Shown: piece after piece, positions 5,889 to 25,286 of the stretch
Layout of the letters: every line of letters begins with the position of its first letter
Numbering within the stretch: position 1 is the first letter of the stretch
IMG/VR virus record: IMGVR_UViG_3300031111_000227
Coordinates: 1 to 25,286 of that record
DNA length: 25,286 nt
DNA from: a virus
Direction: 5' to 3' (one strand)
Notes under the pieces: model-generated
The model's database searches: none
The model's input: the letters and a program-made list of their open reading frames with translations, nothing else
Told to the model about the DNA's origin: nothing
Position numbers and translations under genes: made by a program

Positions 5889-5902
5889 GGTCAACTTCGG
5901 CC

Positions 5903-5947
5903 CGATCAGAACGATCAGAACGATCAGAACGATCAGAACGATCAGAA
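5903..5947. repeat. Five copies of a 9-mer (CGATCAGAA)
   Basis: Five perfect units, flanked by 6-bp inverted arms GGCCCG (5899-5904) and CGGGCC (5948-5953). The unit differs by one base from the coding 9-mer CGACCAGAA of the gene at 826. It may be a binding array or an expanded microsatellite. Confidence 0.9.
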
Positions 5948-5958
5948 CGGGCCCTATA

Positions 5959-5974
5959 TAACACGGAGGTGTTA
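5959..5974 (+). promoter_or_regulatory. Hairpin holding the SD of the HTH gene
   Basis: TAACAC (5959-5964) and GTGTTA (5969-5974) form a perfect 6-bp stem with the loop GGAG. The SD GGAGGTG is thus half in the loop and half in the stem, 2 nt before the ATG at 5977. Pairing would limit ribosome access, suggesting translational control. Confidence 0.5.
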
Positions 5975-5976
5975 CG

Positions 5977-8397: not shown

Positions 8398-9772
8398 GCT
8401 GCTTCCATTTCAGAGCTCCGCAGTGCCCTTGATGGGCGAACAGAACTTTCTCTTAGCGGACGATTGTGGTCTAGGCAAGACGTTAACTGCAGTTGAGTGT
8501 GCGCGTAGGTATGCTCGTGGTCCCGTGCTTATCATAGCTCCTCGATTGACGAAGGAGTGGTGGGCTGAGGTTATTAGGGATCAGGAGGCTGGCTACGTAG
8601 GTGTTTGCGGACAAGCAGGGCGGGGTGTACCTTGGCGTAAAGTAGCAACCTGGGGCAACAAGAAGCCCAACATCTATGTAGTCGTTCATCCCACTGCAGT
8701 GCGTATGTCCGCCGACAAACTAAGGGCGGTGAAGTGGGATATGGTGATAGTCGACGAGGCTCATAGGTTCAAGAACCGCAAAGCGAAACAGACGAAGGCG
8801 CTGAAAACGCTTATAGCTCGTCGGAAGATCATGCTGACAGCTACGCCGTACGGCCGCAGTCCCGCAGATATGTGGGCGCTGCTGCATTGGTTGTATCCGA
8901 AGAGCTTCAGGTCCTATTGGAGATTCTTTGACCAGTACGTTGACTCGTATAGGCCACCTCACGGTAGGTTCACTACGATAAACGGGCCGAAGAACCTGAA
9001 ACAGTTAGCGAAGGAGATCGAACCCTTCTACCTGAAACGCACGAAGGAACAGGTACTACCTGATTTACCTCCTATCACGTACTCGGATGTACCTATCGTC
9101 CTAGAGGGTAAGCAGGAGCAGTTGTACCTCAAGCTCGTGAAGGATGCGTACGCCGAGTTGTCTGGAACAGAGATCATACTAGAGAACGCGCTTGTACGAT
9201 TCCTGCGCCTTCAACAGTGTGCTCTCGATCCAAGTATCATAAGCGAGGATCTGCCACCGTACCCTCTAGGTGAGGTTCCTGCAAAGGTTCAGTGGTTGCA
9301 GGAGTGGATAGAGGATCATCCGGGTGAGTCGGTCGTCATCGTCTCCAGGTATCGTAGGTTCGTAGAGGCCTGGTTACGTGGACTAGCTCCCGGAGCTTGT
9401 ATCGTTGGTGGTATGGATAGGGACGAGGTACAGTCAGCCTTAAAGGTGTTCAACAAGACGGGCGTGATGGTCGGTTCGCTGCATGCTATAAAAGAGGGCC
9501 TGAATCTACAGCGCGCGTCAACTATGATTATCACCGACGGTTCGTGGTCCTCGACGGACGAGTACCAACTGTCACAACGTATCTATCGCGTAGGACAGAC
9601 GAGGCACTGTCACGTAATTCATCTAGTCGCTAAGTTGTCACAGCGCCGTAAGTGGACCGTCGATAAGCTCATGCGGAGGGCCGTCGAGAAGAGGTTCAAT
9701 GACGCACAGCTCGTCGACGAGTTCGTACGTGACCTGAAGGGGAGTTGGTTCGACCAACTCCTAGGGGGTTAA
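8387..9772 (+). CDS. SNF2-family DNA helicase/translocase
   Basis: 461 residues. The helicase motifs are in order: Walker A in ADDCGLGKT (24-32), DEAH box (123-126), TATP (151-154), and the SNF2-type motif VI QRIYRVGQ (397-404) preceded by GLNLQ. Two RecA-like lobes with little extra sequence match the minimal SNF2-like helicases of many phages, which remodel DNA during replication or recombination. The start is supported by an ACGGAGG SD inside the preceding gene. Neighbours are nucleases, consistent with DNA-branch processing. Confidence 0.9.
   Translation: MKYELLPFQSSAVPLMGEQNFLLADDCGLGKTLTAVECARRYARGPVLIIAPRLTKEWWAEVIRDQEAGYVGVCGQAGRGVPWRKVATWGNKKPNIYVVVHPTAVRMSADKLRAVKWDMVIVDEAHRFKNRKAKQTKALKTLIARRKIMLTATPYGRSPADMWALLHWLYPKSFRSYWRFFDQYVDSYRPPHGRFTTINGPKNLKQLAKEIEPFYLKRTKEQVLPDLPPITYSDVPIVLEGKQEQLYLKLVKDAYAELSGTEIILENALVRFLRLQQCALDPSIISEDLPPYPLGEVPAKVQWLQEWIEDHPGESVVIVSRYRRFVEAWLRGLAPGACIVGGMDRDEVQSALKVFNKTGVMVGSLHAIKEGLNLQRASTMIITDGSWSSTDEYQLSQRIYRVGQTRHCHVIHLVAKLSQRRKWTVDKLMRRAVEKRFNDAQLVDEFVRDLKGSWFDQLLGG
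9741..9761 (+). other. Perfect 9-bp hairpin at the end of the helicase gene
   Basis: GGAGTTGGT (9741-9749) and ACCAACTCC (9753-9761) form a perfect stem with loop TCG within the last helicase codons. It is directly followed by the AGGGGGT SD of the next gene, so it could pause transcription or modulate coupling. It could also be chance. Confidence 0.4.
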
Positions 9773-10226: not shown

Positions 10227-10605
10227 TCTGCAGATTAACTATTACTCGAAGGGCGCGGCGAAGTTATGTTTCCGTCACGCAGTAATGCGCGCCCTGCAAG
10301 GCGAAGACGTGCAATCCGAAGTGTACGTACCTAACCCTGATCGAGACACCGGTCCTTGGGAGTGCGTCGATTGTACGCTCGAGCGCGAACGCGAAGAGGC
10401 AGTAGAGGCTCTTTCCTCAGTAGTGGACGACGCGATAGAGGATGTTAGACGAACGTACAAGATCCTTCGAGGCCCGACAGTTCAGGTTGAGGATACTTGG
10501 ACGATAGGTCTTGGACGAGCGCCCCGGCACGTCGAGTGCCTGAGACAGGCTAAGCGCCGTGATCCTAACGAGGTAGCTGATGCCTTCAAGGAGGTGTTCA
10601 AATGA
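10216..10605 (+). CDS. CHCC zinc-knuckle protein, function unknown
   Basis: 129 residues with C18-x2-H21 and C50-x2-C53 (WECVDC), the same C-x2-H...C-x2-C arrangement as the genes at 826 and 4140. A charged helix follows (REREEAVEAL). The SD is AGGAGG, 4 bp overlap with the next gene (ATGA). Its position ahead of nuclease genes hints at a DNA-related role, but nothing more can be said. Confidence 0.65.
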   Translation: MNLDLQINYYSKGAAKLCFRHAVMRALQGEDVQSEVYVPNPDRDTGPWECVDCTLEREREEAVEALSSVVDDAIEDVRRTYKILRGPTVQVEDTWTIGLGRAPRHVECLRQAKRRDPNEVADAFKEVFK

Positions 10606-11093
10606 GCCTCGCCTTCTTAGCCACAGCTATCCTGATCGGCGTCATCCTAATCCTGTGCTGCATCTTGGTTATAATGGGTACGCTGCTAAACGCTGCGCGC
10701 AAGGAAGCCGAGGATGCTGCCGAACGCGCGCTCGAACACGCCACTCAGGTTCTCAAGCAGCGCGAGAAGGAGATTCGCGCCGACGCAATAGCTCGTAGCA
10801 AGCGCGTCATTAAGGGAATGACGTATGAGAAGCTCGTGCCGTTCGAGGAGGGGTTTCCCTTCAACCCTAGAGATATGCGTTTCATAGGCAACCCTATCGA
10901 CTACATCGTCTTCGATGGAATGTCGGAGGGCGCTTTGGAGCGCATAGTGCTATTGGAAATCAAGTCGGGCAAGTCGCGGTTGAACAAGAACCAGCGGTAT
11001 GCCGCGATGACAGTTCGAGAGGGCGAGGTCGAATTCATCACCTATAGACAGAAGGAGGAAGAACATGAAGTTGCCGATGTTGATGTGCCCTAG
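10602..11093 (+). CDS. Membrane-tethered Holliday-junction-resolvase-like endonuclease (Endonuc_Holl type)
   Basis: 163 residues. A membrane helix (about 5-27) leads into a long charged coiled helix (30-68) and a PD-(D/E)xK nuclease core: D100 in GNPIDYIVFDG, then E119-x-K121 in LLEIKSGKS. This order (membrane helix, coil, Hjr-like nuclease) matches the family described as endonuclease related to archaeal Holliday junction resolvase. It would cut branched or foreign DNA near the membrane. It overlaps the next gene by 29 bp. Confidence 0.75.
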   Translation: MSLAFLATAILIGVILILCCILVIMGTLLNAARKEAEDAAERALEHATQVLKQREKEIRADAIARSKRVIKGMTYEKLVPFEEGFPFNPRDMRFIGNPIDYIVFDGMSEGALERIVLLEIKSGKSRLNKNQRYAAMTVREGEVEFITYRQKEEEHEVADVDVP

Positions 11094-12118: not shown

Positions 12119-12733
12119 ATGGCTCACATTCTCGAAGGTCCTGTTCATCTGGACTTCACTGACAAGCACGCTGGAGTGGTGTTTCGGAGACCTGAGTTGT
12201 TACTCCATCCTCCCATCCCCCACTCGCTGTACACTGTAAACCCTAGGAACATAGAGGGGAAGGCCTGGTGGGATGAAGTGCGACGCAAGGCGTATGCAGA
12301 GAATGATTACCACTGCTTTGCCTGCGGGGCTCATCAGCTAGACGTCGAAGGGCGAAACATGTGGCTAGAAGCACATGAGTGTTATGATTACGACTGGATC
12401 AACTCTGAGATCACCTTCAGAGAAGTAGTCGCACTATGTCCTTATTGCCACAAGTTCATACACTTTCTTGGATCCCTAGGTAAGAGACATCTCAAGGAAG
12501 TTCTCATTCACGGAATCGGCGTCCTGACAGAGGCAGGTCTGGAAGTACCGAACGCACAGCACTTCATGGCTAAGACACTGTTCCCTGGCGCCTTGCCGGA
12601 TCTACCAGAAGTCAAGAGTACGTTTCACAAGAAGTTTTCGCATCTCACGTGCACGATCTGGACGCTCAAATATGGAGGTACGAGATATGACTGGCGCGCA
12701 GCAACTTGCTCAACCGCCCGTACACACAAGTGA
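12119..12733 (+). CDS. HNH endonuclease-like protein
   Basis: 204 residues. The core has C66-x2-C69 (HCFACG), then LEAHECYDYDW with H86, then C107-x2-C110-H111 and H115 (LCPYCHKFIH). The spacing fits a zinc-bound HNH nuclease. ATG at 12119 is chosen over an upstream in-frame start (12011) because that region overlaps the HTH gene and lacks an SD. The end overlaps the next gene by 47 bp. It may be a DNA-processing or homing-type nuclease. Confidence 0.65.
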   Translation: MAHILEGPVHLDFTDKHAGVVFRRPELLLHPPIPHSLYTVNPRNIEGKAWWDEVRRKAYAENDYHCFACGAHQLDVEGRNMWLEAHECYDYDWINSEITFREVVALCPYCHKFIHFLGSLGKRHLKEVLIHGIGVLTEAGLEVPNAQHFMAKTLFPGALPDLPEVKSTFHKKFSHLTCTIWTLKYGGTRYDWRAATCSTARTHK

Positions 12734-13871
12734 AATAAAGAATTACTTGAAGTGCAAGCTGTACTGGTTCTGGACAGCTCCCCCTCCTAGGGGGCTTGGC
12801 CTCGAACCGAAGATGATCCGGCCTGCCTTGAACACAGGGCGGGTCGTGCATAAAGCTCTACAGGACGGTTACGACACGCAGGAGCCGTTCGTAGATACTT
12901 ATCGAGCTGCCGTGCAAGAGTACCTCGAGAAGTATGAGGAAGCAGATTCAGATACGCTCGATGAGCTGGAGACGTGCGGCTCGATGATAGAGGGGTATGA
13001 AGGTTGGGCTGCTATCAACGATCCGGGGACCAAGTTCCTGGCCACCGAAACTCAGTGGGGCCCTATCGAGTATGAGGGCATCCCTCTATCAGGCCGGTTC
13101 GACGCAGTCGTCAAGATGGATGATGGCCTCTGGATCATGGACTTCAAGACGACGAAGTATCTCGACAACCCCTGGACTACCACCGATCTGCAGGCGACGA
13201 TATACACCTGGGCTGCTCGTCAGCTGTACAGCAAAGATGTGCGGGGTCTCATATTCCGTTTCCTACGGAAGAAGGCGCCGATGAAGTACCATGAGCTGAT
13301 ACTCAAAGATGGCACGCTCACGACGCGCAAGAACCTTTCAGGGTCAACGACGTATGAGGAGTACATCACTGCGCAGGCCGTAGCTACCTTGAAGTTCCTA
13401 GCTGAGAAGGATTTCATGTTCGCTGGTGAGATAGGCCTTGAGGATGCCGACGCAGTTCCGATATCGTACTACCGTGCGCTATTGGATGGTACACAGCAGG
13501 AGCAACCGTGGTATCCCGAATTCGCTGAAGCGTTTCAGAACACGCGCAGGTTATATCATAGGCAGTCGATGGAACTGAAGGGCCCCAGCAAGTTCTTCTG
13601 GGACGTTAGGGAGTATCGTACGGAGGAACAGATTGAGAACTACTTCAGATACATCGTCGTCCCCTGCGCACACAGGATGACAGCTCCGAAGAAGTGGGTC
13701 GGCCCAACTGGATTGGGGTCCTTCCGTACTTGCACTTCGTGCTCTTTCCGCGCCCCTTGCAAATTACGGATGGACAATGCGGACTTCAGAACGATTCTGA
13801 ACGAGGAGTTTCAATTGAGAGATATCTATGAGGAGGATTATGAAGAAGCCGATAGAGGACAGGATCTCTAG
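12687..13871 (+). CDS. Cas4/RecB-like PD-(D/E)xK nuclease with Fe-S cluster motif
   Basis: 394 residues. GRVVHKAL (51-58), D139 in SGRFDAVV, D152-x-K154 in IMDFKTTK and Q169 in DLQATIY make the RecB-type nuclease core. C23 together with C349-x2-C352-x5-C358 matches the [4Fe-4S] staple seen in Cas4, AddB and related nucleases. It probably resects DNA ends for recombination with the downstream ATPase and ssDNA-binding protein. The ATG at 12687 follows GGAGGT (12674-12679). Confidence 0.85.
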   Translation: MTGAQQLAQPPVHTSEIKNYLKCKLYWFWTAPPPRGLGLEPKMIRPALNTGRVVHKALQDGYDTQEPFVDTYRAAVQEYLEKYEEADSDTLDELETCGSMIEGYEGWAAINDPGTKFLATETQWGPIEYEGIPLSGRFDAVVKMDDGLWIMDFKTTKYLDNPWTTTDLQATIYTWAARQLYSKDVRGLIFRFLRKKAPMKYHELILKDGTLTTRKNLSGSTTYEEYITAQAVATLKFLAEKDFMFAGEIGLEDADAVPISYYRALLDGTQQEQPWYPEFAEAFQNTRRLYHRQSMELKGPSKFFWDVREYRTEEQIENYFRYIVVPCAHRMTAPKKWVGPTGLGSFRTCTSCSFRAPCKLRMDNADFRTILNEEFQLRDIYEEDYEEADRGQDL

Positions 13872-14266: not shown

Positions 14267-14453
14267 AAAGAAACGTAGGTATGGTCTTTCGTTCTCGTGG
14301 AAGCGAGCGGTCGGCTTGTCTCAACGCAAGCAGAAGATAGCTCGTAAAATCGGTATTCCGCTAACAAGAGCCGGACGTCAGCGGAAAGTAGGTGCCCTTG
14401 TCCTGGGCGCCTTCCTAGGGCGTCGTGCGCGACGCAAGAAGAGGAGTAGATAG
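14259..14453 (+). CDS. Very basic small protein
   Basis: 64 residues with 24 Lys/Arg and no Asp or Glu. The middle (VGLSQRKQKIARKIGIPLT) looks helical. Such proteins usually bind nucleic acid. The SD is AAGGGGGT (14247-14254), 4 nt before the ATG. The next gene starts 1 bp after its stop. Role in DNA condensation or with the neighbouring recombination proteins is inference. Confidence 0.65.
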   Translation: MSRKKRRYGLSFSWKRAVGLSQRKQKIARKIGIPLTRAGRQRKVGALVLGAFLGRRARRKKRSR

Positions 14454-14454
14454 C

Positions 14455-15255
14455 ATGAAGAAGCTAAATAAAGAAGCGCTTGAACTTGAGGCCAAGTACC
14501 TTCGGCTCTTGGTGTATGGCGAGCCAGGTACAGGGAAGACGTGGTTCGGCGCGAGCGCAGCCCTTGATACTGTGTCCGCCCCAGTGTTGTTCCTGGAGTA
14601 TCGAGCACAGATAGGTTCGCTGCGTAGCAATCCGGACTTCGTCAAGGCGATCGACGAGAAGCAGTTGGTCATCCTGCAGCTGGATAAGTACAGCGAGCTC
14701 AACTACGTGTACACTTGGTTGAGCCAGGGTTGCCCAGAGAATCAGAACTTCGATGAGCTGTTTGACGCTCCGCCGAAGACGCTGGTCGTCGACTCGCTGA
14801 CAGAGCTGCAGCGGTCTGAGGTTATGCGCATCTCTGGCAACCAAGCGAACAAGTTCCTTACGGATGTTGATGCTCCACAGATCCAGCATTGGGGACAGCT
14901 CCTCAATCAGTTCACGCTGCTAGCAAATCTGTTCTACAAGCTCCCGATGCACGTGATCTTCATAGGTCTCGAGGATGTCGACTACGGGCCTAGGAACGTC
15001 GGGGAAGCTCCCACAATCCAGGGGTATCGCCTCGCGCTGCAGGGATCCAGTCAGCGTCAGTTCCCTGCGTACGCGATGACTGTCATGCGCCTAGACCGAG
15101 GTCCAAGAGGGTCGAACGTGCACTGCATCGGCTACACGAAGGCGGTACGCGCAAAGGCGAAGGAGCAGACTGGCTTTCTTCCCGCAAAGATCCCGGCTCC
15201 GTCTGTTCCGCAGCTGGTCAAGTACCTGCCTGGTAACGAGGAGGGAGGTGAATGA
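14455..15255 (+). CDS. Sak4-like RecA-fold ATPase (phage recombinase)
   Basis: 266 residues. Walker A is GEPGTGKT (22-29) and Walker B is KTLVVDSLTE (VVDS at 111-114). The compact RecA-like core without extra domains fits the Sak4 group of phage single-strand annealing/strand-exchange ATPases. The neighbours support this: a Cas4-like nuclease upstream and a DUF669-like ssDNA-binding protein downstream. Start ATG 14455 follows GAGGAG; the earlier in-frame start at 14425 would overlap the basic-protein gene. Confidence 0.75.
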   Translation: MKKLNKEALELEAKYLRLLVYGEPGTGKTWFGASAALDTVSAPVLFLEYRAQIGSLRSNPDFVKAIDEKQLVILQLDKYSELNYVYTWLSQGCPENQNFDELFDAPPKTLVVDSLTELQRSEVMRISGNQANKFLTDVDAPQIQHWGQLLNQFTLLANLFYKLPMHVIFIGLEDVDYGPRNVGEAPTIQGYRLALQGSSQRQFPAYAMTVMRLDRGPRGSNVHCIGYTKAVRAKAKEQTGFLPAKIPAPSVPQLVKYLPGNEEGGE

Positions 15256-15256
15256 G

Positions 15257-15676
15257 ATGATGTCTAAACTAGCAGCGTTAATGCTCTTCCTGCCGATGGT
15301 ATTTGGAGGAGTAGCTCAACAGGCCACCCCGATTCAGGCAGATGTGCCCTGGAGCCCTCCGATCGCTTATGAGGACCTAGTCGATTATCCTGGGCAGGAA
15401 GTTTCGTTCAAGGAGACGTACGTTGTTCGCGTGTCGTGGGTAGATCAGGCGCCTGCAGGAGTTCCACGGTATCGGCTTCTTCTAGCGACGAGGACCGAGG
15501 ACGGCTGGGATACGTACTCAGATCTGATCCTTGTGAGGGCAAACTCCTTGCCGGTAGCTCTAGAATCGTCTGGGAAGCTCTTGGCGATATCTGCTAAGAT
15601 AGTAGGTTCGTATTGCACTGTAGGTACATTTGATTGCGAACACGACTCGATACCGGCCTTAGAGCTGGTCCAGTAG
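15257..15676 (+). CDS. Secreted or lipid-free exported protein, function unknown
   Basis: 139 residues. MMSKLAALMLFLPMVFGGVA is a clear signal-peptide-like start with cleavage likely around residue 20-25. The mature part is beta-rich (YVVRVSWVD, YRLLLATRT, LILVRANSL) with a C-terminal Cys pair that could form a disulfide. No family recognised. Start at 15257 (or 15260) follows GGAGG by 8 nt. An exported protein between recombination genes is unusual and may act at the host envelope. Confidence 0.65.
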   Translation: MMSKLAALMLFLPMVFGGVAQQATPIQADVPWSPPIAYEDLVDYPGQEVSFKETYVVRVSWVDQAPAGVPRYRLLLATRTEDGWDTYSDLILVRANSLPVALESSGKLLAISAKIVGSYCTVGTFDCEHDSIPALELVQ

Positions 15677-15730: not shown

Positions 15731-15764
15731 TTGGCTGAAACATATTCTCATGGAGGTAACAACT

Positions 15765-16253
15765 ATGTTCGGTAAAGACAAAGTAACTGAGGAAGCTTTT
15801 GAGGGTGAGGCCGTCGACATGTCCGGCGATGAAGGTTTCGAGGATGTGGAACTCTCTGGCCCTATCTCCCTCGACCTCGGCGCAGTTCGTGACGAGCCGG
15901 TTGCCGAAGGTTGGCACTCGGTCGAGATCGAGCGCTGCGAACCGAAGCTGTCTCGCCAGAAGAACCTGCCGAGTCTGTTCGTGATGGGGCGCGTCATTGA
16001 CGAGGGTGATATCGACTACAATCGCACGCTCGTCTGGAACTTGATGCTTGCTGGCGATGGCATGGTCTTCACGAAGCGCTGCTTCAAGGCACTCAACATG
16101 CCTGAGACCCTGAACTATCCGTCGCACCAGGCGCTGGCCGACGACCTTATCGGGCGGCAGGTCGACTGCAAGGTCAAGCACCGCACGTATCAGGGCAATC
16201 TGCAGGCGGCTGTCAACAACTGGCGCGCTATCACGCCCGACATCAGCTTCTAG
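15765..16253 (+). CDS. DUF669-like single-stranded DNA-binding protein
   Basis: 162 residues. A disordered acidic N-terminus (1-45) is followed by an OB-fold-like region with WHSVEIERCEPKLSRQ, LFVMGRVID, and VDCKVKHRTYQGNLQAAV (KxxxYxGN pattern of the DUF669 family). These proteins bind ssDNA and partner with Sak-type recombinases. ATG 15765 follows GGAGGT (15752-15757) at 7 nt; an ATG within that SD (15750) is rejected. A perfect hairpin follows. Confidence 0.65.
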   Translation: MFGKDKVTEEAFEGEAVDMSGDEGFEDVELSGPISLDLGAVRDEPVAEGWHSVEIERCEPKLSRQKNLPSLFVMGRVIDEGDIDYNRTLVWNLMLAGDGMVFTKRCFKALNMPETLNYPSHQALADDLIGRQVDCKVKHRTYQGNLQAAVNNWRAITPDISF

Positions 16254-16264
16254 ACCGTCTCGTG

Positions 16265-16296
16265 CTAGGGCAGGTGGGTTCGCTCACCTGCCCTAG
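16265..16296 (+). terminator. Perfect hairpin with UUCG loop after the ssDNA-binding gene
   Basis: CTAGGGCAGGTG (16265-16276) pairs with CACCTGCCCTAG (16285-16296) without mismatch, extended inside by a G-U and a G-C pair to close a UUCG loop. It lies 11 bp after the stop. Only TTCT follows, so termination may be partial; it likely separates recombination genes from the pathway genes. Confidence 0.75.
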
Positions 16297-16312
16297 TTCT
16301 AAGGAGATCGAA

Positions 16313-16783
16313 ATGAATAAGAAAGAAGAACGTAAAAAGAAGAGGAGGAAGGTTATCCTCGTCCTTAGCAGTATTATTGCAGTGCTGTGTTCCTGCTTAT
16401 TCCTAGTGGCGCTGTTAACATCAAGCCCTGAAGAAGCGGAACCAAAAGCACCTACGACCGAACCAACAAGTACGCAGGCTCCAACTGCTACACCTACGAC
16501 CGAACCAACAAGTACCCATATACCTACACTAGCTCCTACAAGTACACCTCTTCCAACTGTTCTTCCAGCCGCCCTTCCAACAGCCGTACCGCAGCCGGAT
16601 ACCTGGAGGTGCCCTGATTCGCTTGAGGGGGCTCAATACGTAGGTAGTATTCTCAGCGGAAAGTTCCATAGGAAGGGTTGTCGGCACGTAGAGCAGATAA
16701 AGCCAGAACATCGCATCTGTTTCGCCAATCGCGAGATCGCTATTGCTGCTGGCAGAACACCTTGCGGGACCTGCAACCCGTAA
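16313..16783 (+). CDS. Membrane-anchored protein with Thr/Pro stalk and Ada-like metal-binding domain
   Basis: 156 residues. A basic start (1-12), one membrane helix (13-36), a Thr/Pro-rich stalk (about 45-95) with a doubled PTTEPTST unit, and a C-terminal domain YVGSILSGKFHRKGCRHVEQ...AGRTPCGTCNP with H119, C123, C151 and C154. This last part matches small Ada-type zinc-binding domains found at the ends of many bacterial exported proteins. It is probably displayed outside the cytoplasm. SD AAGGAG, 6 nt from ATG 16313. Such stalks are common in Chloroflexota, a weak host clue. Confidence 0.7.
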   Translation: MNKKEERKKKRRKVILVLSSIIAVLCSCLFLVALLTSSPEEAEPKAPTTEPTSTQAPTATPTTEPTSTHIPTLAPTSTPLPTVLPAALPTAVPQPDTWRCPDSLEGAQYVGSILSGKFHRKGCRHVEQIKPEHRICFANREIAIAAGRTPCGTCNP

Positions 16784-17470: not shown

Positions 17471-18127
17471 ATGCATGTAGTCGTTCTTTCAAGTGGAGGG
17501 TTGGACTCTACAACCCTTGTCTACTATCTACTGAAACTAGGGCACGTACCGCACTTGCTGTATATAGCCTACGGTCAACGCCACTCCAAAGAGGAGGAGT
17601 TCTCGCGGACGGTAGCGGCTAACCTAGGTCTCGGATGGACAAAGGTTGAACTTGGGCTCGTCCTTGAATCGTCGGCGCTAACGAACCAGGAGCTCGAGAT
17701 ACCTTCTGGCAACTACACAACTGAGAGTCTCAAGGTAACAGTCGTCCCGAACAGAAACGCGATCTTTGCGAACATTGCGGCAGCCGTCGCAGCTGATCAC
17801 AGAGCAGAGGCGATAGCGCTTGCTGTGCACGCTGGAGATCATCCAGTGTATCGCGACTGTAGACCTGAGTTCATAGGGGGCCTTAAAAAGTTTCTGTCGC
17901 TATCACTGGACAACCCCCTTGACGTTATGGCCCCGTTCGTCTACATTCCGAAGGCGGCCATCGTCCTGCTAGGGGATATCTTAAACGTTCCTTTCGACCT
18001 CACGTGGAGCTGTTATAAGGGCGAGGAGCTGCACTGCGGTACCTGCTCGACGTGCCGAGACCGTATGGAGGCCTTTGCGAAGGCCGGCGTTCCCGATCCT
18101 ACACCTTACGGCATATGGAAGATTTGA
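17471..18127 (+). CDS. queC: 7-cyano-7-deazaguanine (preQ0) synthase QueC
   Basis: 218 residues. The PP-loop SGGLDST (8-14) binds ATP; VVPNRNAIFANIA is the family core; the C-terminus carries the zinc Cys set CYKGEELHCGTCSTC. QueC turns 7-carboxy-7-deazaguanine into preQ0 using ATP and ammonia. Full length for the family. GAGGAG SD, 13 bp after queF. Its TGA overlaps the start of a mini membrane gene (TGATG). Confidence 0.95.
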   Translation: MHVVVLSSGGLDSTTLVYYLLKLGHVPHLLYIAYGQRHSKEEEFSRTVAANLGLGWTKVELGLVLESSALTNQELEIPSGNYTTESLKVTVVPNRNAIFANIAAAVAADHRAEAIALAVHAGDHPVYRDCRPEFIGGLKKFLSLSLDNPLDVMAPFVYIPKAAIVLLGDILNVPFDLTWSCYKGEELHCGTCSTCRDRMEAFAKAGVPDPTPYGIWKI

Positions 18128-18216: not shown

Positions 18217-18555
18217 ATGAGACTATACTTGAAGAGGAAGTTCGCAGCTTCACATAAGCTAGACCTTCCCTACGCAAGCAAATGCGGTAAGCTCCACGGC
18301 CACACGTGGGTAGTAGAAGTGTGGCTCGAAGGGCCAATTAACGAGGACGGGATGGTAGTTGACTTTCAGGTAATAAAGGAAATGATCGACACCTTCGATC
18401 ATACGTATCTGAATGACTGCATCCCCTTCTACAACTCAGGTGCGAATCCTACGGCTGAAAACCTGGCGCTGTTCTTTATCCGTACGATTCCTCATGCTAT
18501 ACAGGTACGGGTCTGGGAGTCCGAGGATGCGTACGCTGAGGAGTTCAGACCATGA
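18217..18555 (+). CDS. queD: 6-carboxy-tetrahydropterin synthase QueD
   Basis: 112 residues, a normal length. Zinc ligands H13 (FAASH), H27 and H29 (LHGH) and catalytic C23 are present, as are FDHTYLND, PTAENLA and VWESEDAYAE. QueD converts dihydroneopterin triphosphate (product of FolE) into 6-carboxy-tetrahydropterin. The stop overlaps queE by 4 bp (ATGA). Confidence 0.93.
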   Translation: MRLYLKRKFAASHKLDLPYASKCGKLHGHTWVVEVWLEGPINEDGMVVDFQVIKEMIDTFDHTYLNDCIPFYNSGANPTAENLALFFIRTIPHAIQVRVWESEDAYAEEFRP

Positions 18556-19190
18556 CCGTCTATAGGATTTCAGAGATCTACCGCACGATGCAGGGTGAGG
18601 GTTGGTGGGCAGGGATGCCTTGTACGCTTGTACGATTCCAGGGGTGCAACTTGAGCTGTCCGTTCTGTGACACTAAGGAGTCGATCGACCAGACTTCTGG
18701 TGAGCAACTTAACCTATTACAGCTCTTCAATCGGATTAGCGACGTCCACGTTAAAGGGCAGATGATCTTGATCACAGGGGGCGAGCCGACACTTCAACCC
18801 CTAGAACAATTAGTCAAGGTCCTGTACCCACTAGGGCCAGTGCATCTTGAGACGAATGGAACCCAGCCCCTATCAGGGGACGTTATGTTCAACTGGACAG
18901 CTGTAAGCCCCAAGATTACTTGGTGCGGTGAAGATGCAAAACCAGTCCAGAGCATGCTCGGCCGCGCTGACGAGATAAAGTGGCTCGTCGGTAAGGAGCA
19001 GGACATCGAGGAGTTGAAAGCCTTCCTAGAGGAGGTTAGTTCCCTGGGTTTCGCTGATGGTCCTTTCAAGCGCGTAACGTTACAGCCTATTTCGCAATCA
19101 GGCCAAGCAACCGAGATAGCATATCAGGCGTGTCTCGAGTACGGTTGGCGGCTCAGCCTGCAGATGCACAAGTACCTCGGTAAGCCGTAA
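18552..19190 (+). CDS. queE: 7-carboxy-7-deazaguanine synthase QueE (radical SAM)
   Basis: 212 residues. The radical SAM cluster motif is C-x3-C-x2-C in GCNLSCPFCDT; ITGGEPTLQ is the SAM-binding GGE motif; MQGEGWWAGMPCTLVRFQG is the family's usual opening. QueE makes 7-carboxy-7-deazaguanine from 6-carboxy-tetrahydropterin. Translationally coupled to queD. The next small gene starts 1 bp after its stop. Confidence 0.93.
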   Translation: MTVYRISEIYRTMQGEGWWAGMPCTLVRFQGCNLSCPFCDTKESIDQTSGEQLNLLQLFNRISDVHVKGQMILITGGEPTLQPLEQLVKVLYPLGPVHLETNGTQPLSGDVMFNWTAVSPKITWCGEDAKPVQSMLGRADEIKWLVGKEQDIEELKAFLEEVSSLGFADGPFKRVTLQPISQSGQATEIAYQACLEYGWRLSLQMHKYLGKP

Positions 19191-19191
19191 C

Positions 19192-19407
19192 ATGAAGACG
19201 TGTAGACATTGCGGTCGGGAGTTCGAATATGGAAAATACTACTGGCAGAGCTGTTGCGACGCCTGTGCGCAGGAGCACAAGAACGACTGGCCGATAGAAG
19301 GTGACACGTGAGGCATCTGCGGCGGAGAGATAGTTTATCTCTACACGAGGGAGTACGAAGCACACTACGAATGCCCTGAGTGCAACGCTCGTTGGGCCTA
19401 TGACTGA
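19192..19407 (+). CDS. Two-zinc-motif mini protein interrupted by an in-frame UGA
   Basis: From ATG 19192 the frame gives a 39-residue zinc protein (C4-x2-C7, C21/C22-x2-C25) ending in TGA at 19309-19311. The same frame continues as GICGGEIVYLYTREYEAHYE, then CPEC, to a TGA at 19405-19407. This second part is a zinc ribbon lacking only its first Cys, and the UGA stands exactly there (UGA-x2-C). It has no start codon of its own. A 7-bp hairpin with a G-first loop lies 15 nt after the UGA. Options are selenocysteine readthrough, a nonsense mutation, a sequencing error, or just the 39-residue product. No good SD. Confidence 0.5.
19326..19342 (+). other. Hairpin downstream of the in-frame UGA
   Basis: AGAGATA (19326-19332) and TATCTCT (19336-19342) form a perfect 7-bp stem with loop GTT. 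The loop starts 21 nt after the UGA and its first base is G, which fits what is generally described for bacterial selenocysteine insertion elements. Palindromes this short also arise by chance. Confidence 0.35.
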
Positions 19408-19416
19408 GTGAATCTT

Positions 19417-19600
19417 TAGCGCATTGTATGAGGAACGGTGCACTATCAAGATATAAGGAGAAACATATGTTGAAAAAACTACTACCTACCGTTACGATCC
19501 TGCTCGTGCTTGTCGGCATCACGGCATCAAGTATGCTCTTGATGACGCCGCCTGACAGCTCCGCTATGCCTCTGCTCGACGTTACGCCTACAGAACCTCC
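19417..19600 (+). repeat. 5' block of cassette 1 (direct repeat)
   Basis: 184 bp covering the 5' untranslated region, SD and signal-peptide codons of the gene at 19467. It is repeated at 20258-20441 (offset 841 bp) with only one difference (GTT versus GCT in codon 39). Confidence 0.95.
19418..19442 (+). repeat. 25-bp inverted repeat, copy 1 (forward)
   Basis: Begins AGCGCATTG and ends GGTGCA. Its exact reverse complement is at 20162-20186, so the pair brackets the gene at 19467. Confidence 0.95.
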
Positions 19601-20123
19601 TCTAGTCCCTGACCACCTCTACCGTGTAGGCGTATATCACACAACTGACTATGGCTGCGACAACTGTGGCTTCTCAGGCACTGTGGATGACATCGACAGC
19701 TGTTACACCTGCAAGTACGCCTCGAGTCACCTAAACACGAACAAGTGTACTCAGATTCCAGTGTCGTACTGCCGCACTGCTAACGGTTTCGCTCCTGATT
19801 ATGTCCTGTACTGGGCTAACGGCGAGTTCCGGTGGCACTACGGCCTCTCAGGCCAATACTTCTTCGGCTCCAACTTCGTGACCGACGAATACTACGGCTA
19901 TGGCGGCGAGTACTGGTGGGAGTACCCAGTGACTGACGAGGACCAAGAGACGGTCTATTACAAGGAGTTCGACGAATGGACTGTCGAGGCCGAGGTACAT
20001 GAGGACGCGTACTGGGACAAAGAGTGGTGGTCTCAGTACCTCGGGGGCCTCGAGGGAGCATACTGGGACACCTGGAACGTACAGTTCCGATGGGCTGAGT
20101 GTAAGGGTACTGTCTGCCCGTAA
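19467..20123 (+). CDS. Secreted Cys/aromatic-rich protein, cassette copy 1
   Basis: 218 residues. MLKKLLPTVTILLVLVGITA is a signal or anchor segment, followed by a Pro-rich spacer to residue 45. The mature part is rich in Tyr, Trp, Asp and Gly, with eight Cys, several in pairs (CDNC, CYTC). It shares blocks with the product at 20308: VDDIDxCYxC, ASSHL, LYWANG, FFGSNF/YFGANF, and a WA(E/D)C...CP end. SD AAGGAG, 6 nt from ATG 19467. No family recognised. It probably acts outside the cytoplasm. It interrupts the deazaguanine operon. Confidence 0.75.
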   Translation: MLKKLLPTVTILLVLVGITASSMLLMTPPDSSAMPLLDVTPTEPPLVPDHLYRVGVYHTTDYGCDNCGFSGTVDDIDSCYTCKYASSHLNTNKCTQIPVSYCRTANGFAPDYVLYWANGEFRWHYGLSGQYFFGSNFVTDEYYGYGGEYWWEYPVTDEDQETVYYKEFDEWTVEAEVHEDAYWDKEWWSQYLGGLEGAYWDTWNVQFRWAECKGTVCP

Positions 20124-20213
20124 CTGTTCGAACACGTCTTTGATCTAGTGTAAGAGGAACCTGCACCGTTCCTCATACAATGCGCTAAAACTTTCGAAAG
20201 GAGAAAGGAGATA
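20124..20213 (+). repeat. 3' block of cassette 1 (direct repeat)
   Basis: 90 bp of non-coding DNA after the stop, repeated at 20992-21081 (offset 868 bp) with only about two differences. It ends in an SD-like AAAGGAGATA; here no gene follows this SD, while in the second copy it serves folE. Confidence 0.95.
20162..20186 (-). repeat. 25-bp inverted repeat, copy 2 (reverse)
   Basis: Exact reverse complement of copy 1, after the first cassette gene. With copy 3 (20259-20283) it could also form an intergenic 25-bp stem around a 72-nt loop. Confidence 0.95.
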
Positions 20214-20257
20214 ACACTGGAAAACAACTTAACCTCGGCTTTCAAGTCGTCAGTCAC

Positions 20258-20441
20258 TAGCGCATTGTATGAGGAACGGTGCACTATCAAGATATAAGGA
20301 GAAACATATGTTGAAAAAACTACTACCTACCGTTACGATCCTGCTCGTGCTTGTCGGCATCACGGCATCAAGTATGCTCTTGATGACGCCGCCTGACAGC
20401 TCCGCTATGCCTCTGCTCGACGCTACGCCTACAGAACCTCC
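20258..20441 (+). repeat. 5' block of cassette 2 (direct repeat)
   Basis: Second copy of the block at 19417-19600, one base different over 184 bp, covering leader, SD and the first 44-45 codons of the gene at 20308. Confidence 0.95.
20259..20283 (+). repeat. 25-bp inverted repeat, copy 3 (forward)
   Basis: Identical to copy 1, upstream of the second cassette gene; the matching reverse copy is at 21030-21054. Confidence 0.95.
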
Positions 20442-20982
20442 AGTCTCCAAGTGCTACATTGTCGGAGTTGTTCACGAGAACCTGGGCGGGGCAGCCTTTA
20501 CTATCCGCGACGTAGATGACATCGACGCATGCTATTCCTGCCCCTTAGCCTCCAGCCACCTAGTGAACGAGTGTTCTTCCATCGACCTCTACTGGTGTGA
20601 TCCAGATTCAGGCTTCGGCTTCGACCCTGAATACTTCCTATACTGGGCGAATGGGTACTTCAACTCTGACTCTGGTTGTGGGGGCTCTGGAGGACCTTGT
20701 ATCGAGGATGACTACTACTTCGGGGCCAACTTCACGACCGACGAGGAGTACGACAACGACTGGTGGGACTACCCCTTCCCGTCGCCAGGTTACGCAGAGC
20801 AGACAGAATACTGGTCCTATGGGGGCCAGGAAGCTTACGTGAACTGGTATGGCAACTACGCCAATCAGAACGTCGGCTTCCAACAGTATACCAACTTCCC
20901 GTGGCTCAACACCTACTTCAACAACAGCAATGCCCAGTGGAGATGGGCAGACTGTCATGCAGGATCCTATAGCTGCCCGTAA
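20308..20982 (+). CDS. Secreted Cys/aromatic-rich protein, cassette copy 2
   Basis: 224 residues. The first 45 are the same as in the product at 19467 except V39 to A. The mature part is related but strongly diverged, with several insertions (Ser/Gly/Cys-rich GCGGSGGPC; Asn/Tyr-rich end region). Nine Cys. Shared blocks are VDDIDACYSC, ASSHL, FLYWANG, YFGANF and RWADC. The same SD is used. The flanking DNA is far more alike than the mature coding part, so the middle has been exchanged or has changed fast. Function unknown. Confidence 0.75.
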   Translation: MLKKLLPTVTILLVLVGITASSMLLMTPPDSSAMPLLDATPTEPPVSKCYIVGVVHENLGGAAFTIRDVDDIDACYSCPLASSHLVNECSSIDLYWCDPDSGFGFDPEYFLYWANGYFNSDSGCGGSGGPCIEDDYYFGANFTTDEEYDNDWWDYPFPSPGYAEQTEYWSYGGQEAYVNWYGNYANQNVGFQQYTNFPWLNTYFNNSNAQWRWADCHAGSYSCP

Positions 20983-20991
20983 CGCTCGCAG

Positions 20992-21081
20992 CTGTTCGAA
21001 CACGTCTTTGATCTAGTGTAAGAGGAACCTGCACCGTTCCTCATACAATGCGCTAAAACTTTTGAAAGGAAAAAGGAGATA
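20992..21081 (+). repeat. 3' block of cassette 2 (direct repeat)
   Basis: Second copy of the block at 20124-20213. Its terminal AAGGAGATA is the SD of folE (ATG 21085). Confidence 0.95.
21030..21054 (-). repeat. 25-bp inverted repeat, copy 4 (reverse)
   Basis: Identical to copy 2, between the second cassette gene and folE. It lies in the folE leader and so could affect folE translation if it pairs with copy 3. Confidence 0.95.
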
Positions 21082-21084
21082 GAT

Positions 21085-21762
21085 ATGACAACAGTAAGAA
21101 GGACACAGATGACGACGTACGAGGACGCAGTAGACCCGTACCCTCCCTATGATAAGGTGGGTAGCGGAACAGTGGGCTACGCGTTCAGGCTCCTGGCACA
21201 TTGCGGGATGCCTCTCGCTGCACGCAAATACGAGGGACTTAGTGTGGCAGAGGTTCCAGCGCATCCGCATCAGATGATGACGCCGTATCGCCTAGCCCAC
21301 TACTTATCGTACTGGTTCAGGCCACAGAAGGAACTACGCTTCACGACCTTCGAGAACGTAGACCCTAAGGTCGACCAGGTCGTGTGCGTCGATCCCATCG
21401 ACTACTGGGCAGTGTGCTCGCATCACATGTTGCCCTTCTTCGGGAAGATCTACTTCGGTTACATCCCGAAGGACAAACTCATAGGTCTCAGCATGATACC
21501 CTTGTTAGCGAAGGAATTCTGCGCGAGGCCCTGGGTGCAGGAGCACATGACTCAGAGGTTGGCCGACATCCTGATCGAGAAGTCAGATCCCCTGGCACTA
21601 GGTTTGGTCACAGTGGGGACGCATACCTGTCAGATGCTTGACCTGCAGGGCCCACCAGTTCCCAAGATGACCTTCTCAGTGATGTACGGGAAGTTCAAGG
21701 AATCCGATAGGGCGAGGGCGGAGTTCTTGAAGTTGAGTGGGATAGACAAAGGAGGTGTATGA
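21085..21762 (+). CDS. folE: GTP cyclohydrolase I FolE
   Basis: 225 residues, full length. Zinc and catalytic motifs are present: CSHHMLPFFGKIYFGYIP, LIGLSMIPLLAKEFCARPWV (with the conserved R), and THTCQMLDLQG holding the second zinc Cys. FolE converts GTP to dihydroneopterin triphosphate, the first step toward preQ0. The SD lies in the 3' repeat block of the cassette. Its stop overlaps the next gene (ATGATGG). Confidence 0.9.
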   Translation: MTTVRRTQMTTYEDAVDPYPPYDKVGSGTVGYAFRLLAHCGMPLAARKYEGLSVAEVPAHPHQMMTPYRLAHYLSYWFRPQKELRFTTFENVDPKVDQVVCVDPIDYWAVCSHHMLPFFGKIYFGYIPKDKLIGLSMIPLLAKEFCARPWVQEHMTQRLADILIEKSDPLALGLVTVGTHTCQMLDLQGPPVPKMTFSVMYGKFKESDRARAEFLKLSGIDKGGV

Positions 21763-22397
21763 TGGCATTAGTGATCACTGGTACGCAACGTTCAGGTACG
21801 TCTGCGATAGCTAAGCTGTTCATCGAGATGGGCTACGACCTTGGCTCTTACTGGTTTGACGAGACAGTACAGGGCGGGTACGAGAACCTCCTCGCATGCG
21901 CGTTCTATCGCTACTGGCTCGGAGACGACTCCTTCCCGTTCATCGGAGCTCCTTATGGGAAGTATGGGCCAGGTGAGATCTCACAAGGACTCCTGCCAGT
22001 GATGTTTTCGCAGATGGATTATAAGGTCCTCAAGTTCAGCTACCTATGCATGAACCCTGTGTTCGTCTCAATCTGGCACAAGTTCAGGCCACACCAGGAC
22101 AAGTTCCTGATTATGCATAGGGACCCTAACGCAGTCGTGCGGTCAAAAGAGGCGCATAGGGATCAGTTCGATCTCGATAGCCTGCTCTTGTCAAAGAGCT
22201 CGAGGGGCCTCAGAGCGAACTTCGGAACGAGCGTCGAATTGCTCGGATCTGTTGGTGAGGAGTCCTGGATGTTGCCCTTCCCGGATTGTCTGGATGACTT
22301 CGACATGGTAGACGAGGCAGTGATGTCCCTCGTCGATGTCAAGATTCCTCTTGGTATCTGGGAAGAGGTCGTTGATAAGTCGAAGGTACATTTCTAA
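21762..22397 (+). CDS. Sulfotransferase-like protein (PAPS-type)
   Basis: 211 residues. The N-terminal VITGTQRSGTS (GTQRSGTS at 7-14) matches the 5'-phosphosulfate loop of sulfotransferases, and HRDPNAVVRS (R120, S128, R-x7-S) matches the 3'-phosphate motif. PAPS-dependent transfer of sulfate is the expected reaction; the acceptor is unknown. ATG 21762 gives the better spacing to GGAGGTG (21751-21757) than ATG 21759. Its place between folE and the DpdA gene suggests, but does not prove, a link to DNA base modification. Confidence 0.65.
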   Translation: MALVITGTQRSGTSAIAKLFIEMGYDLGSYWFDETVQGGYENLLACAFYRYWLGDDSFPFIGAPYGKYGPGEISQGLLPVMFSQMDYKVLKFSYLCMNPVFVSIWHKFRPHQDKFLIMHRDPNAVVRSKEAHRDQFDLDSLLLSKSSRGLRANFGTSVELLGSVGEESWMLPFPDCLDDFDMVDEAVMSLVDVKIPLGIWEEVVDKSKVHF

Positions 22398-22414
22398 CCT
22401 TAAGGAGGTTACAT

Positions 22415-22744
22415 ATGATCTACACGAAGAAGGAACAGGAACAGTTCAAGTTGACGAAAGCGAGGTTCGCGAAACTCTTTACGGGCCTCCTGGAGACAAT
22501 GCTCGCAACCTACGAACGCAAAGGGCAGAAGCGCGATGTCGGGTCTCCAATACATCACAGGCAGTCGCCAAGCACGATGCTGGCAATCGCACAAGCCAAG
22601 ACGCGAAGGATCGAATCGATCCTCTCACAACCCGCTTGGGAAAGAGAGAAGTCGATGCGTGAAGCGGTTATTGAGGAGTGCGTGGATGCAGCGAACTACA
22701 TGCTCTACATCGGCGCCCTGTGTCTATTACTAGAGGAGGGATAA
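22415..22744 (+). CDS. Helical protein, possibly MazG-like/nucleotide-modification associated
   Basis: 109 residues, all helical. The end, REAVIEECVDAANYMLYIGA, resembles the E-x2-D half of MazG/DUF1599-like phage proteins linked to nucleotide metabolism, but the E-x2-E half is not evident. AAGGAGG SD, 7 nt spacing. The DpdA-like gene starts 3 bp after its stop. A role in nucleotide handling is a guess from this likeness and position. Confidence 0.6.
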   Translation: MIYTKKEQEQFKLTKARFAKLFTGLLETMLATYERKGQKRDVGSPIHHRQSPSTMLAIAQAKTRRIESILSQPAWEREKSMREAVIEECVDAANYMLYIGALCLLLEEG

Positions 22745-22747
22745 GCG

Positions 22748-23764
22748 ATGCAAGTATCACACATAGTACCTCCTGGCTGGGCAGGCATCTTTCCTAAGGG
22801 CTCCTACCGGATGGTCCTTGCTCACTGGGTCCTCGGCTATCCGGGGTATGCAGCTACAATGAAGGGGAGCCCCAGAGCGCTTGCACCAGATTCGCCTTTC
22901 ATCCTTCTGGATAATGGCGTCTTCGAAGGCGAACAGGTAACGCTCGACCAGCTCAACGAAGCTGCGCGCCGTGTCTGCGCAGATGAGGTAGTACTACCTG
23001 ATGTTCAGGGCGATCCGAAAGCTACTTTACACCGCTCGTGGACTGCCTTAGGGAAGATCGCAACGAATCGCCTCGTGTTTGTTCCTCAGGGAGCTACGCA
23101 TGAGGAGTGGGCTAAATGCCTGCAGGCATGGATCTCAAGGTGGGAGCACTCGGATTGGGCTGATGTGTACACCCTGACAATCGGAATCTCATCTTTGCGT
23201 AATCCTGAGGACCGGAAGGCCATACAAGGTACCAGACCACAGCAGATGATAGAGGCGGCTAAAACCGCTTACCCGGTGCATCTTCTCGGAATCGCAAGCC
23301 CGCGCGTCTTCGGCGAAGAGGAGCTCCCGGTAGCTCTATCGTGCGGAGTTCGTGGCGTCGACTCCTCGACAGCCTTCGCGTTAGGTGCTTCAGGAAAGCT
23401 GTTGACGATGAAGCAGCCGAAAGAGTTCCTAAGGGTTCCAGGTTCCTATGACCTGTTGCCGACGAACAGCAAACGCCTCATATACCTGAATCGTGCTATC
23501 CTTGAACATTGGGTAGCCGAAGGCGAGGGAAGTGAGGTAGTTCCTACACATATAGTTCGAAGTACTGCTCAGCGATGGCTGAAGTACTACCAAGAGGGCT
23601 TCTGTCCACTTGAGGACGTTCTGAAGGCTGTCGGCCTGAAGGGTAAGTTCGCTCTTACAAGGGGATCTCGAAAGGGCCGAAACGCGACGAGACGCGAGAA
23701 GCATCTGCGACCCCTCGAGGACAATGAGAAGCCGTTAGATCACGAGGAGGTTATAAATGTGTAA
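22748..23764 (+). CDS. dpdA: DpdA-like DNA-guanine transglycosylase (7-deazaguanine in DNA)
   Basis: 338 residues related to tRNA-guanine transglycosylase. D55 in LLDNGVFEGE corresponds to the general-base Asp of DSGGFQ, D205 in GVDSSTAFALG to the nucleophile, with LPDVQGD (83-89) and VHLLGIASP between. The zinc Cys set of tRNA enzymes is absent, as in DpdA proteins. A basic C-terminal extension (KGKFALTRGSRKGRNATRRE) may bind DNA. It would exchange guanine in DNA for preQ0 or preQ1 made by the upstream genes. The end overlaps the next gene by 8 bp. Confidence 0.8.
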   Translation: MQVSHIVPPGWAGIFPKGSYRMVLAHWVLGYPGYAATMKGSPRALAPDSPFILLDNGVFEGEQVTLDQLNEAARRVCADEVVLPDVQGDPKATLHRSWTALGKIATNRLVFVPQGATHEEWAKCLQAWISRWEHSDWADVYTLTIGISSLRNPEDRKAIQGTRPQQMIEAAKTAYPVHLLGIASPRVFGEEELPVALSCGVRGVDSSTAFALGASGKLLTMKQPKEFLRVPGSYDLLPTNSKRLIYLNRAILEHWVAEGEGSEVVPTHIVRSTAQRWLKYYQEGFCPLEDVLKAVGLKGKFALTRGSRKGRNATRREKHLRPLEDNEKPLDHEEVINV

Positions 23765-24023
23765 CAACCACTTACTATCTGGACGCCTGCTCGCAGCAGC
23801 GTGGTGGGCTAGTTTCTTTCTGTCGACATGGCTGCTTATCCTAGGGAGAATCCCTGGGCGGACCTGGCCTGTCTGCCTCGTCTTCCTGCTAGGTTCTCTC
23901 GCCATCACAGTGCTCGTACACGGAGCAGTACAGGCCGCACGTGACGACACTGCGGAGGAGATGATCAGTGCGCTCTCAAAGATCGTTAAGTCGGCGCCTC
24001 GGGTAGGCGGCAACCATGACTGA
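23757..24023 (+). CDS. 88-residue two-span membrane protein
   Basis: Hydrophobic stretches at about 10-30 and 37-58, then a charged helix. GAGGAGG within the end of dpdA serves as SD. It overlaps both dpdA and the polymerase gene by 8 bp. No family recognised. Confidence 0.65.
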   Translation: MCNNHLLSGRLLAAAWWASFFLSTWLLILGRIPGRTWPVCLVFLLGSLAITVLVHGAVQAARDDTAEEMISALSKIVKSAPRVGGNHD

Positions 24024-25286
24024 ATATTGTTCGACTTGTCCGTACAAGGGTCGCCCTCGAGTACCACCTGAGGGCGATCCGAGTACGGCTAAGTACATAC
24101 TGATAGGCGAGGCGCCTGCCTACGACGAGGTTCGTAAAGGGCGCCCCTTCATAGGCAAGACAGGCCGGCTGCTAATGGCGTTCTTAAGGCGTGCTGGCAT
24201 AAACCGTGGAGATTGCTACTTAACGAACGCCATCAAATGTTCCTTGCCGCGTGAGAAACGTGGCTATTCCCGCGCCCTTGCAGTATGCCGACATGAACTT
24301 GCTGACGAGTTGAGAGTGGTTGCCGAGACGAACCCTGACGCACAAATAGCAGTTATGGGAGGGATCGCTAAAGAGGCGATCTGGCCGAACGACAAGAGCG
24401 GCATTATGGCGTCTAGGGGTTGGCGGCGGCTGGGTGAGCGCTGGGTTTACGTAATGGCGCATCCTGCCTACTACAACTACAATCCCGATCAAGCACCTAT
24501 GTTCGTAAAGGATCTGCAACGTCTCAAGCGTGGGAGATTGGAGGCACCCATCGTCGCCCCTGTGATCATAGATACTCTTGAGGGTCTCGTGGATCTTCTG
24601 CATCAGGCAGCACGCGTAAAGCCTGAGGATCGAAACTTTGTAGCGTTCGACCTCGAGACAGATCAGGTCGACTTCCAGCGAGACCGTATCCTGTGCATGA
24701 GCGTCTCCTTCAACTTCGGTACAGCCTACATCATACCAGACAGCTTATTGTATGAGGATGGTAAGGAGTTCTACACCGGCTCTTGGACGAAGAGGGTGCA
24801 AGCGAGGTTCCTAGACGACTTCCGGTATCATACCGGAGAGTACCTAAAGCCAGATGAACGCACTGTAAGATTACTCTATCAGTTGTTTGCAGTGCCTGGC
24901 TATCGCTGGGTAGGACATAACGCAAAGTTCGACTTGCGGTTCCTTATCGGACAGCTAGGAGTTGAGAATGCACATGTGGACTTCGACACCATCGTTGCGC
25001 ACTATGCGCTGGACGAGCGCAAGGGCGGTCACGGTCTTAAACCGCTGGCTGACGACTACTTTGATTCTGGTGACTACGAAGCTACCCTATTCAACTATAT
25101 CACCAAGAAGTCGGCTAGATACAGTAGAATACCGAGGCCGGTGCTATATCAGTATAACGCTATGGATACAGAGCTGACTTTGCGCCTCGCATATGCTCTT
25201 GAACGGGAGTTGAAACAGCAGGGTTTGTATGAGCAACCCTTCATGTTCCCGATGATGGAAGCATTGCCAATGCTGCTCAACGCCGA
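24016..25286 (+). CDS. Family A DNA polymerase with N-terminal uracil-DNA glycosylase and 3'-5' exonuclease domains (partial)
   Basis: 423 residues seen; the gene runs off the window. Residues 1-170 look like a family 4 uracil-DNA glycosylase: GEAPAYDE (31-38), RPFIGKTG, LTNAIKC and HPAYY (149-153), with four Cys (5, 8, 75, 91) placed as Fe-S ligands. Residues 205-400 are a DnaQ/Pol I-type 3'-5' exonuclease with FDLET (D212, E214), HNAKFD (N302, D306) and YNAMD (Y380, D384). The polymerase domain is expected downstream. Glycosylase-polymerase fusions are known in some phages (SPO1-type). The Gly of GEAPG is Ala here, so uracil excision is uncertain. Confidence 0.85.
   Translation, partial: MTEYCSTCPYKGRPRVPPEGDPSTAKYILIGEAPAYDEVRKGRPFIGKTGRLLMAFLRRAGINRGDCYLTNAIKCSLPREKRGYSRALAVCRHELADELRVVAETNPDAQIAVMGGIAKEAIWPNDKSGIMASRGWRRLGERWVYVMAHPAYYNYNPDQAPMFVKDLQRLKRGRLEAPIVAPVIIDTLEGLVDLLHQAARVKPEDRNFVAFDLETDQVDFQRDRILCMSVSFNFGTAYIIPDSLLYEDGKEFYTGSWTKRVQARFLDDFRYHTGEYLKPDERTVRLLYQLFAVPGYRWVGHNAKFDLRFLIGQLGVENAHVDFDTIVAHYALDERKGGHGLKPLADDYFDSGDYEATLFNYITKKSARYSRIPRPVLYQYNAMDTELTLRLAYALERELKQQGLYEQPFMFPMMEALPMLLNA

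Follow-up and report, generated by a model that had tools for sequence, protein, structure and literature searches.

Two tandem genes for probably exported or membrane-anchored proteins, gene 1 at 19467-20123 and gene 2 at 20308-20982, lie between queE and folE of an uncultured phage, in a 25,286-nucleotide stretch of DNA (IMG/VR record IMGVR_UViG_3300031111_000227; hereafter the window, whose numbering is used throughout, with features on the plus strand). The ends of the two units are nearly identical, their middles differ strongly, and perfect inverted repeats of 26-28 nt enclose each unit; these were overlooked in the first-pass annotation and are the unusual part of the locus. We give about an even chance to the explanation that two alternative exported proteins stand here in tandem, with ends that serve as homology arms for exchange and inverted repeats that act in the transcript.

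Shared ends and diverged middles

Direct repeats were detected between 19408-19600 and 20249-20441 and between 20116-20213 and 20984-21081. The exact core of the 5' block (19417-19600 versus 20258-20441) is 184 bp long with 1 mismatch (99.5% identity) and holds the leader, ribosome-binding site, signal peptide and Pro/Thr linker; the core of the 3' block (20124-20213 versus 20992-21081) is 90 bp long with 2 mismatches (97.8%). The near-identical ends described in the first-pass annotation are therefore real features of the sequence, and its reading of the 3' block as non-coding is mostly right, except that the similarity already starts in the last codons and the stop (TGCCCGTAA), where it is interrupted by a 9-nt insertion after the stop codon of unit 2. 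The second copy of the 3' block holds the folE ribosome-binding site. The first copy closes with a sequence that resembles a ribosome-binding site, and no clear gene lies downstream of it; this copy duplicates the folE block, as expected if the duplication occurred in place.

Between the units lies a unique 44-bp junction (20214-20257, unstranded) that has no significant match elsewhere in the available sequence of the phage, and the left flanks of units 1 and 2 are unrelated. An open frame at 20217-20294 follows the first 3' block, with CTG exactly at the position of the folE ATG (LENNLTSAFKSSVT...), and runs into the left arm of unit 2; it may be the truncated beginning of a gene since lost. 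Upstream of unit 1, at 19191-19408, two small zinc-ribbon-like ORFs lie in the same frame, split by a TGA (ACG TGA GGC ATC TGC) that falls where a CxxC cysteine would be expected, and this TGA could represent a nonsense change, an overlapping start or recoding.

Gene 1 encodes a Cys/Tyr/Trp-rich protein of 218 aa, with a Shine-Dalgarno sequence (AAGGAG) before its ATG, and gene 2 encodes a paralogue of 224 aa. Both N-termini are basic and hydrophobic (19-residue mean hydropathy 2.2) and lead into a Pro/Thr linker; the mature part that follows is acidic and contains 8-9 Cys and about 20 Tyr. Judged from these sequences, both proteins carry a hydrophobic export signal and are probably exported or membrane-anchored, in agreement with the earlier claim of export. 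The accompanying suggestion that they may face the host surface or rival phages draws only on this signal, as does the guess that they act at the host envelope. The proteins matched no Pfam, PHROGs or NCBIfam family; a PDB profile search returned antibody chains only, at weak scores that we took as chance, and AlphaFold2 models of the two paralogues had mean pLDDT values of 35 and 30, too low for use. Two more exported proteins are encoded at 16262-16783 and 15248-15676, the first with a long Thr/Pro linker and a Cys-rich C-terminus. Long Thr/Pro linkers are reminiscent of Chloroflexota secreted proteins.

The diverged middles, corresponding to the mature domains, occupy 19601-20113 in unit 1 and 20442-20970 in unit 2. 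As the first-pass annotation had stated, they differ strongly yet remain homologous (35% protein identity, E = 2e-21, BLASTP of the mature parts), and many length changes separate them. The alignment for dN/dS and breakpoints that it had proposed was run, and divergence along the unit is not uniform. A two-breakpoint model gave a log-likelihood ratio of 103, versus a maximum of 12.5 in 100 shuffles, and placed the breaks at 19600 and 20114 (unit 1 coordinates), with identities of 98.9% at the ends and 56.8% in the middle. The breaks are sharp, falling at the end of the signal peptide and linker and at the stop codon. By the Nei-Gojobori method, the signal-peptide block has a dS of 0.028 (1 of 36 synonymous sites) and the middles have one of 0.94 (56 of 105), together with a dN of 0.55 and a dN/dS of about 0.6.

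Selection on the protein is unable to give a thirtyfold synonymous difference between adjacent stretches, so the common ancestor of the ends must be far more recent; a single common age is excluded, and recombination, not protein selection alone, is required. Of the two processes named in the first-pass annotation, recent exchange is favored by these much younger ends, and rapid change of the middles by selection is contradicted by a dS of 0.94 versus 0.03. To judge from the sequence, the recombination would be either an exchange of middles through the ends or a conversion of the ends between tandem copies. Allelic exchange and an old duplication with end conversion would look the same in a single genome. 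The GC and GC3 of the middles match other genes of the phage, so they probably derive from similar phages.

Inverted repeats and predicted transcript structure

The left arm of unit 1 (L1, 19415-19442, TTTAGCGCATTGTATGAGGAACGGTGCA) is the perfect reverse complement of both right arms, R1 of unit 1 (20162-20189) and R2 of unit 2 (21030-21057). The left arm of unit 2 (L2, 20258-20283), which lies within the second copy of the 5' block, consists of 26 nt of the L1 sequence and pairs with 21030-21055. About 4e-10 such inverted repeat pairs would be expected by chance in 2 kb, and in a control set of 993,493 bases from 79 other, distant folE-bearing phage loci the longest perfect inverted repeat within 2.5 kb was 19 nt and A+T-only. 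On the left, the similarity between units has its limit precisely at the arm's outer end; on the right side it extends 24 nt past the arm, taking in the folE ribosome-binding site. R1 and L2 are 70 bp apart. Gene 1 and the junction also share a 12-nt inverted match, which was dismissed as chance (E about 0.1).

Computed folding of the 1.7-kb transcript predicts that the inner arms pair with each other (R1 with L2, 25.6 expected pairs), as do the outer arms (L1 with R2, 26.9 expected pairs); for a unit on its own, the left arm is predicted to pair with the right arm. A folding energy of -65.6 kcal/mol (z -5.9) was calculated for the region from R1 to L2. Local hairpins (GUA-A-GAGGAAC-loop-GUUCCUC-A-UAC) are also present in the 3' blocks, at 20150-20178 (z -3.4; 3 bp, a mismatch, 7 bp and a 7-nt loop, overlapping the right arm) and at 21018-21046 (z -3.1). 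The left arm forms a hairpin alone as well, weakly above shuffles, to which we gave no weight. There was no match in Rfam, and the promoter count was at chance level. From these predictions, a role in the transcript, in processing or protection, appears to be the simplest use of the arms; because all four are identical, covariation lends such a role no support, and the energies were calculated on a single sequence.

Genomic setting and relatives

Upstream of unit 1 lie queC (17471-18127; TIGR00364 above cut-off, PF06508), queD (18217-18555; PF01242, phrog_2389) and queE (18552-19190; phrog_2076, PF04055), and downstream of unit 2 lies folE, for GTP cyclohydrolase I (21085-21762; PF01227, phrog_2197), which supports the setting in a DNA-modification operon proposed in the first-pass annotation. 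Together, queC, queD, queE and folE make preQ0, which with DpdA leads to dPreQ0 in phage DNA (PMC6884629). A 338-aa gene at 22748-23764, considered as a DpdA candidate, had no Pfam or NCBIfam match and is 23-29% identical to phage proteins of unassigned or inconsistent annotation.

The phage also carries a set of recombination genes: a Sak4-like single-strand annealing recombinase (14425-15255; phrog_124, E = 9e-27; PF13479), a probable SSB as partner of Sak4 (15750-16253; phrog_378, E = 7e-4), a PD-(D/E)XK exonuclease (12672-13871; PF12705, phrog_1218) and an endonuclease related to Holliday-junction resolvases (10602-11093; PF10107, E = 5e-34). Sak4 performs single-strand annealing, which its SSB stimulates (PMC5928155), and single-strand annealing proteins recombine diverged DNA (PMC5499656). 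The two contigs of the virus, about 46 kb together, have no recognizable head and terminase genes, so the genome is incomplete; within these 46 kb, no integrase, invertase, transposase or reverse transcriptase was recognized.

Elsewhere, a family A DNA polymerase whose N-terminal stretch resembles, by eye, a uracil-DNA-glycosylase domain lies at 24016-25286 and in L005 (8126-10618). In L089, a contig of the same virus, glycosyltransferase- and methyltransferase-like genes adjoin tail genes (by eye), and three Trp-rich repeats occur at 8907-9237 with 123-bp spacing. The window begins with a 7-bp tandem repeat, GCCGTGT, in about 18 copies (1-133), which is probably why the contig ends at position 1. 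Short tandem repeats at 826-1371 read SEKSEK...PERPER in a reading frame, and within 5809-6000 a 9-bp repeat near 5850 reads DRSDRS on the minus strand.

Just one further record contains any part of the unit. This record, IMGVR_UViG_3300028883_000128, is 100% identical over 4,976 bp (20311-25286); it ends at 20311, inside the 184-bp repeat, and spans gene 2 and its 3' block. By its sequence it is the same virus and, since it overlaps this contig, very probably another assembly; a contig break inside the repeat is the effect expected of a real repeat. Apart from the same virus, searches of IMG/VR, GTDB genomes, phages and plasmids yielded no homologues of the two proteins, the arm and 3'-block sequences matched nothing further in IMG/VR, and a search for relatives through the 338-aa gene at 22748 returned the same virus only (IMG/VR). 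Neither an alternative middle nor a single-unit form or other cassette number was present in the IMG/VR, GTDB genome, phage or plasmid records. The swapping system as such, put forward in the first-pass annotation, thus gained no support from the collections searched, and since no relatives were found, cassette swapping is something that we infer.

Proposed exchange through the ends and competing explanations

In the explanation we favor, one exported or membrane-anchored protein would be present in two alternative versions, encoded next to each other in a phage that makes a 7-deazaguanine precursor. The shared ends, with leader and signal peptide on one side and the stop and 3' region on the other, would be fixed control and export parts that double as homology arms. 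Homologous recombination would be confined to these ends and spare the 57%-identical middles, leaving the ends alike and the middles different, and the agent may most simply be the phage's own set of Sak4, SSB and exonuclease. Most likely, exchange in the ends would have brought in the variant middle from a related phage, after which an unequal event would have left both versions in tandem. In the transcript, a 26-bp stem of R1 and L2 would stand between the genes, and pairing of L1 with R2 would enclose both, the paired arms most likely giving a structure for processing or stability. What speaks against a plain homologous event is that the left limit of the direct repeat and the left arm's outer end coincide exactly; such an event does not require this.

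A dS of 0.03 versus 0.94 and a dN/dS of about 0.6 also fit an old tandem duplication within one genome, in which gene conversion homogenized the ends and the middles drifted under weak constraint until too different for conversion, with no exchange of middles between phages. This history needs a single genome, agrees with the lack of alternative middles in the collections searched, and is suggested by the copied folE ribosome-binding site in block 1, which points to duplication in place. However, both ends must have been converted recently, with breaks at the signal-peptide end and stop codon, while the adjoining stretch escaped from the start, and we consider it possible but on the whole doubtful. 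That the tandem arrangement itself is an artefact, an assembler having joined two strain variants, is suggested by a 184-bp repeat that is hard for short reads and by the other contig's end at 20311 inside it. Yet a unique 44-bp junction is not something an assembler would invent, the left flanks differ, and the overlapping contig shows no difference in 4,976 bp, which cover gene 2 and its 3' block, so that an artefact appears very unlikely.

The inverted repeats raise another possibility, namely that each unit is a mobile or invertible cassette bounded by them and served in trans by a site-specific recombinase or transposase. Perfect repeats of 26-28 nt stand at both ends of both units, inverted repeats of at least 20 nt are absent from 0.99 Mb of control phage loci, and the direct repeat begins exactly at the left arm's outer end, next to unrelated left flanks. 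Such a cassette is nevertheless unlikely, given that there is no target-site duplication, that the repeat continues 24 nt beyond the right arm, that no integrase, invertase or transposase was recognized in about 46 kb of an incomplete genome, and that no further copy was found and the sites fit neither pdif nor attC. We regard as distinctly improbable a novel type of phage cassette for exported proteins that would be moved or inverted in trans, with the inverted repeats as its recombination ends and their arms doubling as RNA clamps around each gene. Mutagenesis by a diversity-generating retroelement, or diversifying selection within fixed ends, would account for change limited to the mature part of an exported protein. 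Synonymous sites and many lengths differ too, however, and no template repeat of the middles or reverse transcriptase was found among the recognized genes of the incomplete genome; the retroelement is disfavored, and we find this whole class of explanation extremely unlikely.

Among known systems, the best reading by analogy is that the locus would be polymorphic and would work most like the internal-protein (ip) loci of T4-type phages, while standing outside that family. In both, several genes share a conserved N-terminal targeting sequence and differ in the rest, in a phage with modified DNA, and here the conserved N-terminal segment is accompanied by conserved flanks. The T4 internal proteins are a diverse set in which only the capsid targeting sequence is conserved (PMC3012670), and the modification-dependent GmrSD nuclease that is inhibited differs from one internal protein to the next (PMC12373910). 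Unlike those loci, the present one has an export signal instead of a capsid targeting sequence, middles that are still homologous and perfect inverted repeats that bracket the units; membership was rejected on the hydrophobic export signal at the N-terminus and on the lack of a PHROGs, Pfam or NCBIfam match.

Acinetobacter pdif (dif) modules are likewise bounded by inversely oriented 28-bp sites that alternate along a row (PMC13141974), but they have one shared site between units where there are here separate arms 70 bp apart, and the 28-bp arm matches 11 of 21 XerCD consensus positions, versus a random average of 10.5. Integron cassettes and the attC sites found in phages also place a gene before an imperfect-palindrome site; no RYYYAAC / GTTRRRY core pair occurs at the 3' blocks, and no integron integrase was recognized. 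The units have terminal inverted repeats, as transposons and MITE-like elements do, an assignment rejected for want of a target-site duplication (flanks TGAGTGAATC...ACTTTCGAAA and CGTCAGTCAC...ACTTTTGAAA), of copies elsewhere and of a matching transposase in the incomplete genome. T4-type phages carry mobile early-promoter stem-loop cassettes, intergenic regulatory repeats that serve as homology for the shuffling of adjacent genes. In contrast to these, promoters are at chance level here and the repeat includes signal-peptide coding sequence.

The perfect inverted repeats, with their arms, hairpins and junction, provide a handle for finding further units in reads or relatives, and for asking whether annealing recombinases or a site-specific enzyme acts on them. 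If the ends are indeed exchange points, as in the explanation favored here, the locus would show a phage diversifying its exported proteins while leader, signal peptide and 3' control stay fixed, and this diversification would sit within a DNA-modification operon.
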